64,000 nucleotides of DNA from Salinispira pacifica. GTDB taxonomy: Bacteria; Spirochaetota; Spirochaetia; DSM-27196; Salinispiraceae. The notes beneath the pieces are model-generated. The model saw only the letters and a list, made by a program, of their open reading frames with translations, had not been told where the DNA came from and made no database searches. The stretch is taken from positions 3,515,570 through 3,579,569 of the forward strand of contig NC_023035.1 of NCBI RefSeq assembly GCF_000507245.1, in the 5' to 3' direction. Below, in pieces: positions 59,798-64,000 of the stretch. Both the position numbers and the translations under genes were made by a program. Position 1 is the first letter of the stretch. Each line of letters starts with the position of its first letter.

Positions 59798-59826
59798 TTG
59801 ACAGATATAGAGTGAATCTATATATT
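59798..59826 (+). promoter_or_regulatory. Sigma-70-type promoter of tRNA-Leu
   Basis: TTGACA, 17 bases, TATATT; the expected start is a few bases before the tRNA 5' end. Very close to consensus. Confidence 0.85.
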
Positions 59827-59837
59827 CATCTTCGCCT

Positions 59838-59921
59838 GCCCAGGTGGCGGAATTGGTAGACGCGCTAGATTCAGGTTCTAGTGGGGGCAACCCCGTGGAG
59901 GTTCAAGTCCTCTTCTGGGCA
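59838..59921 (+). tRNA. tRNA-Leu (anticodon CAG)
   Basis: An 84-base tRNA. Acceptor stem GCCCAGG/TCTGGGC, D-arm GGTGGCGGAATTGGTAGAC, anticodon loop TTCAGGT in stem CTAGA/TCTAG (anticodon CAG, reads CUG), a long variable arm (GGGGGCAACCCC) as expected for Leu, and T-arm GGTTCAAGTCC. CCA is not encoded. Its 3' 18 bases are repeated twice downstream. Confidence 0.96.
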
Positions 59922-59923
59922 CT

Positions 59924-59964
59924 AAAAAAAGAGATTCGGCTCATAGAGTCGGATCTCTTTTTTT
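59924..59964 (+). terminator. Terminator after tRNA-Leu (copy 1)
   Basis: AAAAAAAGAGAT pairs with ATCTCTTTTTTT, starting three bases after the tRNA end. It would also work in reverse. Confidence 0.8.
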
Positions 59965-59979
59965 ATGTCCCAAGGATTG

Positions 59980-60116
59980 GAGGACTTGAAGCGCAGCCTC
60001 CGGCGCGAGCGCTGCGAGCCCAAAAAGCCATGGATGGCTTTTTAGGAGGCGGAGACGGCCTGGAGTTGAGCGACCCGGATGGGAGCGAAATGGAAGGCCA
60101 AGTCCTCTTCTGGGCA
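59980..60116 (+). ncRNA. Candidate structured RNA, unit 1
   Basis: GAGGACTTG (59980-59988) can pair with CAAGTCCTC (60099-60107) in the tRNA-derived 3' end and closes the unit. Inside, AAAAAGCCA/TGGCTTTTT (60022-60043) is a perfect stem, followed by TAGGAGG, and further GC-rich arms flank it. Arm spacing: 33 bases before and 55 after the central stem. Whether it is transcribed past the terminator is unknown. Confidence 0.4.
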
Positions 60117-60118
60117 AC

Positions 60119-60158
60119 AAAAATGGCATTCGATCTTTTTGATCGGATGCCATTTTTT
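60119..60158 (+). terminator. Terminator (copy 2)
   Basis: AAAAATGGCAT-CGATC pairs with GATCG-ATGCCATTTTTT around TTTTT, directly after the second tRNA tail. Confidence 0.8.
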
Positions 60159-60168
60159 GTGTCTGAAT

Positions 60169-60303
60169 AGAGGACTTGAAGCGAGGAGACGGCGTGACCG
60201 CTGAGGGAGCGCAAATCCACAGGATGTGGATTTAGGCGACGAGACGCCCGGAAGAAGTGAGCCACGACGGCGAACGACTGGAGGGCAAGTCCTCTTCTGG
60301 GCA
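60169..60303 (+). ncRNA. Candidate structured RNA, unit 2
   Basis: AGAGGACTTG (60169-60178) pairs with CAAGTCCTCT (60286-60295). The central stem AAATCCACA/TGTGGATTT (60213-60233) occupies the place of the unit 1 stem but shares almost no sequence with it, and is followed by TAGGCG. Spacings (34 and 52 bases) match unit 1. Same order, different bases: this suggests the shape is what is kept. Confidence 0.4.
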
Positions 60304-60332
60304 ACATTAAACCCTTTCGGGGTAAGAGAATA

Positions 60333-60363
60333 GGACGAGTCAAATTGGCTCGTCCTTTTTTTT
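60333..60363 (+). terminator. Terminator (copy 3)
   Basis: GGACGAG pairs with CTCGTCC and is followed by eight T, about 30 bases after the third tRNA tail. Confidence 0.8.
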
Positions 60364-60681: not shown

Positions 60682-61220
60682 GAATACTCCCATTCGGATC
60701 GTAACAGTGAGTACAGCTTCAAATCGTGCACAGATTCATTAATCCGTTCTGCTTGCCGTAATATTCCTTCACAGGTAAAACCAAGTTTTTCAGCAACTTT
60801 CTGGCTTGCAACATTTTTGGTGGCACATTTAATTTCAAGACGTGCGAGATTATATTCCTGAAAGCCGATACGCATGAGATGCCTGATTGATGTCGTTGTA
60901 TATCCCATGCCGGTACAATGCTTATCTATCCAGTACCCGAGAGAGCCCGTTCTATTTTTAAAGTCTATAGGATGATACGATGCAATTCCTTTAAACATTT
61001 CCTCAACAAAAATGCCTAAAGTGGGCGAACCATTTTCAGTTTTCTTTTGTGCAAATGATACAAAATCTTGAGCATCTTCCAGTGTATTGTTTTTCGATAC
61101 CCAACCGAGCCATGGCGAGAGGTGTGACCTGTTTTCCTGGATTATTTTGTGAATCTCCGGGGCATCTTTTTGTTCGAGAGGACGGACGAGTAATATTTCA
61201 CCTAACTGTCTTGCTTCCAT
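60678..61220 (-). CDS. GNAT-family acetyltransferase (RimJ/RimL-like)
   Basis: A 180-residue N-acetyltransferase: substrate-side start (LVRPLEQKDAPEIHKIIQENR), acetyl-CoA motif (YWIDKHCTGMGYTT) and the motif NVASQKVAEKLGF. AAGGAG lies five bases before the ATG. It is a common island cargo type. The truncated sulfotransferase follows on the same strand. Confidence 0.88.
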   Translation of the reverse strand: MEARQLGEILLVRPLEQKDAPEIHKIIQENRSHLSPWLGWVSKNNTLEDAQDFVSFAQKKTENGSPTLGIFVEEMFKGIASYHPIDFKNRTGSLGYWIDKHCTGMGYTTTSIRHLMRIGFQEYNLARLEIKCATKNVASQKVAEKLGFTCEGILRQAERINESVHDLKLYSLLRSEWEYS

Positions 61221-61389
61221 TTTTTCTCCTTACATGCACCACTACACCTCGAATTGAACCAAACATGAATAAACCTACCAGAATAACTGCAATAATGATG
61301 GCATTCATAGAGAATATTCGTTCGGTAATTATTAATATATCTTCCACTCCTGACAGCCATGTGCGGAATATGAGTAATGCTGCAATTGT

Positions 61390-61467
61390 ACCATGGCAAC
61401 ATTCACGACGATAACCGCCCCTTCGTCCCAATTTTGGGACATTACCCATCTTCATACCTGCAGTATA
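61390..61467 (+). repeat. 78-base direct repeat, copy A
   Basis: Matches copy B (63737-63814) with nine differences in 78 bases, same orientation. It contains the palindrome-like GTCCCAA-TT-TTGGGAC. The transposase and HigBA lie between the copies. Confidence 0.8.
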
Positions 61468-61496
61468 AAATTTATGTAAATTTCCAACTACCCTGC

Positions 61497-62894
61497 TCAC
61501 TTTGAACATGATCTGCAATCTCCTCCGGATTTTACCTTACTGCACGTACCTGCTTCACAGGTTTTATCCGTTTCCGTCCCCTTATATGCCTGGATTTCGA
61601 CCACAGGCTCATCAAATGGATATACCGGTGGCACAGGCTGGCAAGGTGGACAGGATGACCGGTTAATCTCCATGCGTTTCTCTCGGGCATCCGACATCAA
61701 AAGCTTGTATAACTCTTCATCCAGTTCATATCCGGAATATACCTCATTGGGAGTCAGGCCCTTCAGTTTTGTATGGGGCCGACAATTGTACTCCTCAATA
61801 TAATGTTTCAAAGATTCCCAGAGCCGATTTGCCTTCGGAAGTCCCCGAGGAAAGATATGCCGGTACTTCAGGGATTTGTTTACCGCCTCGATCATGGAGT
61901 TGGAAAAATCAACATCCTTCCCGGCAATCATAAGTTCCAAACCTGTTCCTGCCAATGTAGTTCTCATCATCATATTATCGAATTCACTTCCGCCGTCTGT
62001 AATCAGCATGGCTGATTTTTTCTTATCTGCCATTTGGGTAATCGCTTTCCTAGTCACGACTCTGGAGTTTCTCGCTCTGAGTTTGGTATCCAGATGCCAG
62101 GATAGAATTTTGCGCGAGTAATTATCTATCAGAAGATGAAGGTAATGAACTATTCCTTCTGTGGACTTTATCTGGGTCACATCCATATGCCACACCTCAT
62201 CCACATCCTCCGCTTCTATGCTGCCGCGTTTCTGCTTCTTATTTTTGACTTTCCGCTTATGCAGCCCAAGATCACGGGCATAGCTCAGGATAGTAGGGAT
62301 GCTGGATATGACGATTCGTTCCCGCACCAGAGTTGCGGCTATCGCGAATGCGGACCATGCGGATTTAATCGGATCACGGAATGCCTTGATCAACTTAGCA
62401 ATTTCATTATTAGTCAGCTGAGTCGGGTATGATGCAACACACTCAAAGCGGGGTGCTCTGGTGCAGCCTATTGGATTTGCTTTCCAGAGATTGAAACGCC
62501 TTGGCGTCATATCAAAGAACTTGAGGATCTGCTTGTCCGGAATAAATTGCTTTGTTCTTTCTACCAGATATATGAAAGATTCCCGAATTTGGGGTGATTT
62601 TATCTTATTCAGCCGGTGAGCATTCTTACCAAGCCGCTTCAAAAAGAATGCAACTCTGGCGATAGAATGCGCTACTGCTGTCGCTGTTCGAGAATCAAGA
62701 ATGTCTTTAATTTCCTCCAGGCGATTTGTGAGGCCTTCATATTTTTTGCCTACGATATCGGTGAAATCGGCATTTCGGAAGTTATGGCGAGTTGATGTCG
62801 GAAGCGACGATATATCAGCCTGATCAGCAATACCAAGATTTACTGCGAGTTTGAAGCTTGTTGAGTAGCGGGAATAGGATGCGTTTTTTGACAT
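61497..62894 (-). CDS. Integrase-type (rve) transposase with Cys-rich tail
   Basis: A 465-residue DDE transposase in one frame. An N-terminal helical DNA-binding part (about 1-220), then the rve catalytic core: WHMDVTQIK (first Asp), LITDGGSEFDN (second Asp) and NSMIEAVNKSL (Glu), then EYNCRPHTKLKGLTPNEVY, typical of IS3/IS481-like integrases. The last 45 residues are unusual: a Cys-rich stretch (SSCPPCQPVPP and CEAGTCSKVKSGGDCRSC). I did not find convincing terminal inverted repeats. Confidence 0.85.
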   Translation of the reverse strand: MSKNASYSRYSTSFKLAVNLGIADQADISSLPTSTRHNFRNADFTDIVGKKYEGLTNRLEEIKDILDSRTATAVAHSIARVAFFLKRLGKNAHRLNKIKSPQIRESFIYLVERTKQFIPDKQILKFFDMTPRRFNLWKANPIGCTRAPRFECVASYPTQLTNNEIAKLIKAFRDPIKSAWSAFAIAATLVRERIVISSIPTILSYARDLGLHKRKVKNKKQKRGSIEAEDVDEVWHMDVTQIKSTEGIVHYLHLLIDNYSRKILSWHLDTKLRARNSRVVTRKAITQMADKKKSAMLITDGGSEFDNMMMRTTLAGTGLELMIAGKDVDFSNSMIEAVNKSLKYRHIFPRGLPKANRLWESLKHYIEEYNCRPHTKLKGLTPNEVYSGYELDEELYKLLMSDAREKRMEINRSSCPPCQPVPPVYPFDEPVVEIQAYKGTETDKTCEAGTCSKVKSGGDCRSCSK

Positions 62895-62973: not shown

Positions 62974-63252
62974 ATGATCAAATCATTCAGGCACAAAGGT
63001 CTTGAAGAGTTCTTCTTTACAGGAAAGAAAAAGGGGATCAATCCTGATCATGCCGGAAAGCTTTCGCGAATCCTTGACCGACTCGATGCATCTATTACCG
63101 TTCAGGATATGGCGCTGCCAGGTTATAAATTGCATAAACTTTCCGGAAATGAAAAAGACATTTGGTCTGTCTGGGTTAATGGAAACTGGCGCATCACTTT
63201 TTTCTTCGAGGAAGGCAATGCCTATATCGTAGATTACCGGGATTATCATTGA
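62974..63252 (+). CDS. higB: HigB-like toxin (RelE superfamily)
   Basis: A 92-residue toxin of the HigB/RelE mRNA-interferase fold: FRHKGLEEFF at the N-terminus, LHKLSGNEKDIWSVWVNGNWRITF and DYRDYH at the end, the characteristic HigB pattern. Toxin-first order and a promoter overlapping the start are typical of higBA. Confidence 0.9.
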   Translation: MIKSFRHKGLEEFFFTGKKKGINPDHAGKLSRILDRLDASITVQDMALPGYKLHKLSGNEKDIWSVWVNGNWRITFFFEEGNAYIVDYRDYH

Positions 63253-63304
63253 GGCTGGTCGGCAACTTTGTTACCTGCTCGCCCATGCGACCGGAGGGGA
63301 TTAT

Positions 63305-63616
63305 ATGAATACGCGAAAACCTACACACCCTGGAATTGTGTTAAAAGAGGATGTTCTTGTTCCTCTAAATCTCACTGTCACCGAAGCAGCTGAGGATCTT
63401 GGCGTTTCACGCAAAGCATTATCTGAGCTGATAAATGAACGAGCTGCGCTCAGCCCCGACATGGCAGTAAGAATTGCGAAGGCAACTAATACATCCGCTC
63501 AGAGTTGGCTAAATATGCAATCAAAGCTTGATTTGTGGAATGCCGAGCAAAAAGAATATAAGATTATTCCCTTTCCAAGCACAAAGCCTGATGATGATGT
63601 TCAGGTCCAAATGTGA
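63305..63616 (+). CDS. higA: HigA-like antitoxin (XRE family)
   Basis: A 103-residue antitoxin. It begins with the HigA signature THPGIVLKEDVL, followed by an HTH (TVTEAAEDLGVSRKALSELINERAALS) and the SWLNMQSKLDLW segment. A purine-rich ribosome site (CGGAGGGG) precedes the ATG. It should bind HigB and repress the operon. Confidence 0.92.
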   Translation: MNTRKPTHPGIVLKEDVLVPLNLTVTEAAEDLGVSRKALSELINERAALSPDMAVRIAKATNTSAQSWLNMQSKLDLWNAEQKEYKIIPFPSTKPDDDVQVQM

Positions 63617-63659: not shown

Positions 63660-63736
63660 TATGCGAGCATAGAAGCATTATATGGATAACTGACGACATA
63701 AGCTCCTGTTATGCGGCTCTATACAGCTGTATATGG

Positions 63737-63814
63737 ACCAAGGCAACATTCACAACGATAATCGCCCGTTCGTCCCAAATTTGGGACACTCCCCGTCTCC
63801 ATACCTGCAGTATA
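63737..63814 (+). repeat. 78-base direct repeat, copy B
   Basis: Direct match of copy A (61390-61467), with a perfect palindrome GTCCCAAATTTGGGAC in the centre. It marks the far side of the segment holding the transposase and HigBA. Confidence 0.8.
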
Positions 63815-63832
63815 AGTTCGGAGCAGTAATAG

Positions 63833-64000
63833 GGTAAAGAGCAGATCCTTTCGTCTCTTGGTTGCAAGAAACACAAGTCCCTGGAAGAGATTTATCAGGA
63901 AGTGAAACATATATTCAGTATCGTTGATTCAGAATATGGAAACATTTGCAGAATATGCGGCTGCAGTTCAAAAAACTATAGTACGGGCAGCTGTTCATCG
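63833..64000 (+). CDS. Cys-rich motif protein, partial, no clear start
   Basis: An open frame of 56 codons running off the window. It reads EQILSSLGCKKHKSLEEIYQ and later GNICRICGCSS, the beginning of a CRxCGC-type metal-binding motif found in small phage and plasmid proteins. No ATG lies before the motif in this frame (a GTG at 63902 is possible), so the gene may be cut by copy B or continue differently. Low confidence. Confidence 0.35.

Follow-up and report, generated by a model that had tools for sequence, protein, structure and literature searches.

Tail-copying hairpin units behind tRNA genes of Salinispira pacifica and other Spirochaetota: a possible mobile palindromic DNA repeat

tRNA-linked repeats (TLRs) have been known in Escherichia coli since 1978 (Egan and Landy 1978; Rudd 1999; reviewed in PMC8144298). 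They lie directly after a tRNA or rRNA gene, carry an 18-19 bp copy of the 3' end of this gene, and occur at several loci with one to five copies each; rtT of tyrT is one of them, and as of 2021 no function of TLRs had been established (PMC8144298). In the tyrT repeats, a core of several hairpins is closed by pairing of the anti-tail GGGGAAGGAT with the tail ATCCTTCCCC, and the copies of this family (RtT, RF00391, tyrT/tyrV) stand in tandem. A fourth RtT match was located in the tyrT-tyrV spacer of NC_000913 (L226 1364-1495), so the family is found not only behind tyrV. The repeats rrA, rrB and rrF follow 5S rRNA, lie between two terminators, have GGA in their hairpin loops, are transcribed and processed, and bind CsrA and Hfq in vitro (PMC8144298); for rrB, a link of CsrA activity to transcription has been proposed. 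Two further kinds of elements are of interest for comparison: the RNAs CsrB and CsrC, with CAGGANG hairpin loops and many GGA sites per RNA, and the REP/BIME elements with their RAYT (Y1) transposases, which lie between genes as short, strictly complementary hairpin repeats and have multiplied in their genomes.

The DNA analyzed here (the window) is a stretch of 64,000 nucleotides of Salinispira pacifica (NC_023035.1), the genome of which (3,782,798 bp) was also searched. The host gene of the array under study, tRNA-Leu(CAG), is located at 59838..59922 on the plus strand, as are all parts of the array, and is preceded by a promoter-like site TTGACA-17-TATATT (59798..59826; 11 of 12 matches, 0.3 expected). 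Its tail C56-A73 (CAAGTCCTCTTCTGGGCA, 59904..59921) recurs twice, 195 and 187 bases apart and with 0 mismatches at both copies, as had been claimed in an earlier note made from the letters of this stretch. The terminator-like hairpin T1 (59924..59964), with an A-run before and a T-run after it, lies between tRNA-Leu and unit 1. Unit 1 (59978..60116; covariance model match with 87.6 bits, L001 1579-1717) contains the anti-tail GAGGACTTGA (59980..59989), which is the 5' strand of the closing stem P1, the hairpin P2b with the loop ATGGAT (60022..60043), and the tail copy (60099..60116), identical with tRNA-Leu C56-A73 at 18/18 positions. After a second terminator-like hairpin, T2 (60119..60158), follows unit 2 (60168..60303), whose match of 106.4 bits (L001 1769-1904) is that of a seed member of the covariance model; it has the same anti-tail GAGGACTTGA (60170..60179), a hairpin P2b with the loop AGGAT (60213..60233), and again an 18/18 tail copy (60286..60303). 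The terminator T3 (60332..60363) stands after this last unit. Each tail is followed by a different terminator-like hairpin, as the earlier note had it, T3 being the only one to pass the strict pattern scan, which missed T1. The closing stem (GAGGACTTG/CAAGTCCTC) and the central hairpins (AAAAAGCC-ATGGAT-GGCTTTTT and AAATCCAC-AGGAT-GTGGATTT) were also found at the places claimed, the central stems differing in sequence as described there. Units 1 and 2 are more stable than dinucleotide shuffles (z -3.0 and -4.4). A pattern scan detected no promoter-like site inside the two units; since the sole one precedes the tRNA, transcription could reach the units only through T1 or from outside.

Using the covariance model R1, 27 units were detected in the S. 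pacifica genome, all of them behind a tRNA or a tRNA remnant. Arrays behind eight tRNAs hold 26 of the units; the hosts, among 42 tRNA genes found, are Leu(CAG), Met(CAT), Val(TAC), Pro(CGG), Pro(GGG), Asn(GTT), Leu(TAA) and Leu(GAG), each with one to six or more units and every array with the tail of its own tRNA. Near-identical units are arranged in tandem arrays. The remaining unit is an orphan (L225) behind a decayed tRNA-Arg(TCT), pieces of which are still readable upstream. The unit of tRNA-Val(TAC) is decayed, with mainly the anti-tail side left, and tRNA-Phe has tail repeats whose content is different from the units. Many tRNAs of the same genome are without units.

All units have the layout anti-tail, core and tail, i.e. 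a closing stem and two hairpins with A(G/C)GAN-type loops. The anti-tail/tail stem P1, for which only about 10 tail bases are needed, encloses P2 and P3; P2 carries P2a (GGCGC-GA..GA-GCGC) and the hairpin P2b, while P3 has a G-A internal loop and the hairpin P3b. In an alignment of 136 distinct sequences, which was fitted to the structure and leans towards it, compensatory changes on both sides were found at 36 of 39 pairs and 91% of the pair cells were standard; with the partners slid by 1-3 columns, pairing was 29-44%. The covariation score was matched by 0 of 500 shuffles, and the seed alignment agrees. The change of sequence under constant layout noticed before is accompanied by abundant compensatory changes in both alignments. 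Folding z-scores of the units range from -3 to -6.5. No Rfam family reached its gathering score in the window or the genome, RF00391 included, and a relaxed threshold gave chance-level matches only.

Units of this kind were also found in other genomes. Within the order, 30 of 46 genomes gave R1 matches. Of 393 genomes sampled from the phylum, 80 did so, which is a lower bound since the filter was stricter. The search of spirochaete genomes with a covariance model, suggested earlier as a check, yielded homologous units behind many tRNAs in many spirochaetes. An exact-pattern scan of all species genomes gave one spirochaete match only, the pattern being too strict. From 154 matches inspected closely, a tRNA was recognised upstream in 137, and these 137 units come from 70 genomes and 27 tRNA isoacceptors. 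The tRNA-to-unit distance has a median of 53 nt. Compared with C56-N73 of the upstream tRNA, the tail is identical at 18/18 positions in 88 of the 137 units and at 16/18 or more in 107 of them; only 2.2% of non-cognate tails reach at least 16/18. Matches without a recognised tRNA lie at contig ends, behind tmRNA, or behind tRNA 3' ends at island-like junctions. At five such junctions (L167, L177, L110, L121, L168), only the 3' part of a tRNA is left directly before the unit, and these remnants start from the anticodon loop or the T-loop. In one genome (G401), a unit of the same family follows the tmRNA gene and carries the tmRNA's own 3' tail (L095, CGACTCCCGCCACCTCCA). A shorter variant downstream of tRNA-Met (L213 in G362) has the same anti-tail/tail stem together with a CCCC..GGGG arm and a GAA-loop hairpin; since R1 scarcely sees it, the class is broader than R1.

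Judged by their sequences, the spirochaete units are TLRs by definition: they lie directly downstream of a tRNA, have an 18/18 tail (both units of the window), and occur at several loci with one or more copies, as the E. coli repeats do. They differ from these in belonging to another phylum, in having no Rfam match and a distinct core with A(G/C)GAN loops, in the terminator between tRNA and unit, and in longer arrays and many more host tRNAs. The comparison with tyrT/rtT, proposed earlier as the nearest analogue, was the right one, rtT itself being a TLR (PMC8144298). RtT shares the closing stem of tail and anti-tail around a multi-hairpin core as well as the tandem copies, and R1 gave 14-20 bits with three E. 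coli rtT units (E 0.0002-0.004 in 2.2 kb), mostly from the closing stem. The two would thus be the same kind by definition and layout, common descent of their cores being unproven. With RrA/RrB/RrF, the units share the position between two terminators and GGA in hairpin loops; they differ in that these repeats stand behind 5S rRNA and that transcription and CsrA/Hfq binding were shown for them. CsrB/CsrC have hairpins with the same CAGGANG loops, but lack a tail and a link to tRNAs, and they have many GGA sites per RNA and stems with 7% G-U. REP/BIME elements resemble the units in the properties given above; the units, however, are tied to tRNA 3' ends, and no Y1 transposase is present in their own genome. 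TLRs were previously known from E. coli and its relatives. A search of the open-access literature brought up no description of such repeats from spirochaetes, and the family is apparently unreported. A large covarying family in a second phylum provides, apparently for the first time, enough sequences to ask whether selection on RNA or propagation of DNA is at work, and complete genomes with up to 27 copies allow this to be tested.

Changing RNA helices often pass through G-U pairs, whereas in a hairpin of DNA G-T is a mismatch just as A-C is. The G-U content of the stems was determined. The apical hairpins P2b and P3b have G-U in 4 of 1,831 pairs, compared with 140 of 1,579 pairs (8.9%) in intrinsic terminators of the same loci, these counts not being independent due to related sequences, a flaw shared by the terminators from the same genomes. 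CsrB and CsrC of E. coli have G-U at 7 of the 97 pairs (7%) of their hairpins. Without the loop-closing pair, the ratio of G-U to A-C is 16:18 for the apical hairpins versus 118:9 for the terminators. As G-U and A-C are avoided equally strongly in the apical hairpins, complementarity looks as if it were kept at the DNA level. This argues, short of proof, that the apical stems may be kept complementary as DNA rather than as RNA. The basal helices are intermediate (P1 3%, helix 7 9%). The earlier RNA reading finds partial support only. A lack of homologous units behind other tRNA genes and of compensatory changes, named there as contrary to it, was not what the analysis showed, both being found in abundance; an RNA structure under selection is, however, not supported in this form, the apical hairpins avoiding G-U to the same extent as A-C.

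We consider it about an even chance (probability roughly 0.48) that the units are a palindromic, non-coding DNA repeat that moves from one tRNA 3' end to another and amplifies in tandem; a mobile repeat was one of the alternatives named in the earlier note and fits best among its readings. The basis of this reading is the location of the units, the identity of the tails, the pairing of the anti-tails, the tandem arrays and the near-absence of G-U, and further the cores common to different tRNAs with exchanged arms and the presence or absence of units within a genus. In one genome (G233), the units of tRNA-Arg and tRNA-Trp have cores that are 86-87% identical, with both arms swapped (GCAGGACTCG/CGAGTCCTGC in one unit and AGAAGGACTTG/CAAGTCCTTCT in the other). 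In one genus, a unit follows tRNA-Met in some genomes and the terminator alone in others (four such loci), and the similarity of related genomes often breaks off at the last tail. Pairing of the anti-tail with the cognate tail, analyzed for 106 units, is almost always present at positions 56-62 and at chance level by position 73; at positions 63-65, 80.5% are paired with the cognate tail versus 30.5% with other tails. Three units (L138, L154, L161) have a perfect 18-bp anti-tail, which makes a single palindrome of everything from tRNA C56 to the unit, and such units are read as probable young copies. In one unit pair with 94% identity, two P3b base pairs are altered on both sides. In near relatives, the unit is mostly retained behind the same tRNA, which indicates that jumps are rare. 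In some units, the tails are truncated or interrupted while the core persists.

For such a mobile DNA repeat, apparently confined to the 3' ends of tRNA and tmRNA genes, three steps may be envisaged. Either recombination or template switching at CRANTCC, the T-loop sequence common to tRNAs, would carry the core from tRNA to tRNA, so that both arms would match the tail of the new tRNA. The direct tail repeats would then drive tandem gain and loss, and a folded single strand, not RNA, would hold the apical stems perfectly Watson-Crick. The mechanism of this movement, an intermediate of single-stranded DNA and any enzyme at work are what we infer beyond the observations. Should the DNA reading be true, the units represent a way to insert beside essential tRNA genes without harm. 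A bolder version, which we regard as tentative and rather doubtful, would make TLRs in general phylum-wide, tail-capturing mobile DNA hairpins, whose folded strand docks on the shared T-loop sequence and takes the tail of the tRNA it has reached on both arms, leaving the tRNA gene undamaged. Against the reading as a DNA repeat stand the G-U pairs of some basal helices, which are RNA-like, and the conservation of loops and motifs across the phylum, which could equally mean a host function. The search for a transposase or recombinase tied to the units, and for a carrier phage, virus or plasmid, found none. A Y1 transposase (PF01797), present in 145 of 393 spirochaete genomes, was rejected as the mover, as it is absent from the S. 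pacifica genome at E 1e-8.

The main rival, to our judgement rather unlikely, would see the units as read-through small RNAs that bind CsrA via GGA loops: the polymerase would pass the first terminator, the unit RNA would end at the next one, and its GGA hairpins would titrate CsrA, coupling CsrA activity to tRNA transcription. The P2b loops are consistent with this, 137 of 145 units having GGA there, as part of the CAGGANG motif known from the CsrB repeats. Moreover, csrA is present in the own genome and in 76 of 80 unit-bearing genomes, P2b GGA was found in only 7 of 13 units of genomes without a csrA match, and the E. coli repeats rrA/B/F between their two terminators arise by read-through and bind CsrA in vitro by way of their GGA loops (PMC8144298). 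The P3b loops, however, have CGA in 52 of 115 units and GGA in only 61, and units are intact, with P3b mostly keeping GGA, in the four genomes without a csrA match, which have a completeness of 94-99% and in which the absences may reflect incomplete assemblies. In addition, G-U is far rarer than in CsrB/C, the tail copy and the exchange of arms are left unexplained, and 19 E. coli TLRs at tRNAs scored below 0.01 for CsrA binding (PMC8144298). Since CGA makes up almost half of the P3b loops and units persist without a csrA match, CsrA binding is the main rival, not the best explanation. The two readings could both be true, the transcripts of a DNA repeat binding CsrA incidentally. On the RNA reading, control by CsrA would be coupled to tRNA transcription.

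It is improbable that the unit RNA has the tRNA itself as its target. Here, within read-through transcripts, the anti-tail would pair with the tRNA tail or the unit tail and serve as a rescue or decoy for 3' maturation. The sequence from tRNA C56 to the 5' arm of the unit can indeed form one palindrome of tail, terminator and anti-tail, and the tail is complete (18/18) in the 88 of 137 units mentioned although P1 requires far less of it. Such a role, however, does not predict that G-U is avoided, and against it stand also the cores that persist with a truncated or interrupted tail and the many tRNAs without units in the same genome.

Many tRNA-targeting integrases use the 18-base segment that is duplicated here. 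On this general knowledge, the units might be relics or decoys of attachment sites for integrases targeting tRNA 3' ends, and island-like junctions do abut several host tRNAs, with similarity stopping at the unit tails. We regard this as very unlikely, because a conserved, covarying three-hairpin core is unexpected for island scars and the units of about 140 bp contain no integrase or ORF. The successive integrations of ordinary islands considered in the earlier note are not supported either, the units being gene-free and none being found in phages, plasmids or viral contigs. A phage, virus or plasmid origin was likewise rejected, phage matches covering tRNA-Leu only, viral pattern matches not being units, and plasmid matches being short and not significant. 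Chance similarity is ruled out by the same layout behind at least seven other tRNAs and by the 137 units in 70 genomes.

Further repeats were noticed around tRNA loci. A second, tiny hairpin-repeat family, CGAGCAG-hairpin-CGACCAG, is scattered around them and also occurs in the window (63255-63281, minus strand), and a related one has the form TACCGCAG-hairpin-GAGGAAC. Other sites of tiny hairpin repeats are L002 1950-2240, L012, L006 and L225; some lie inside unit tails at the border of T-stem and acceptor, others in tandem upstream of tRNA-Met. Downstream of the array, the window contains an ORF pair resembling a HigB/HigA-type toxin-antitoxin module (62974-63616; by eye from the translation) and a 465-aa ORF resembling a DDE/rve-type transposase or integrase (61497-62894, minus strand). 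Peptide stretches YTAGM..G.VP.LGR are found in ORFs near 61200-61518 and 63719-63910, and their similarity on both sides of the 465-aa ORF suggests a dispersed repeat.
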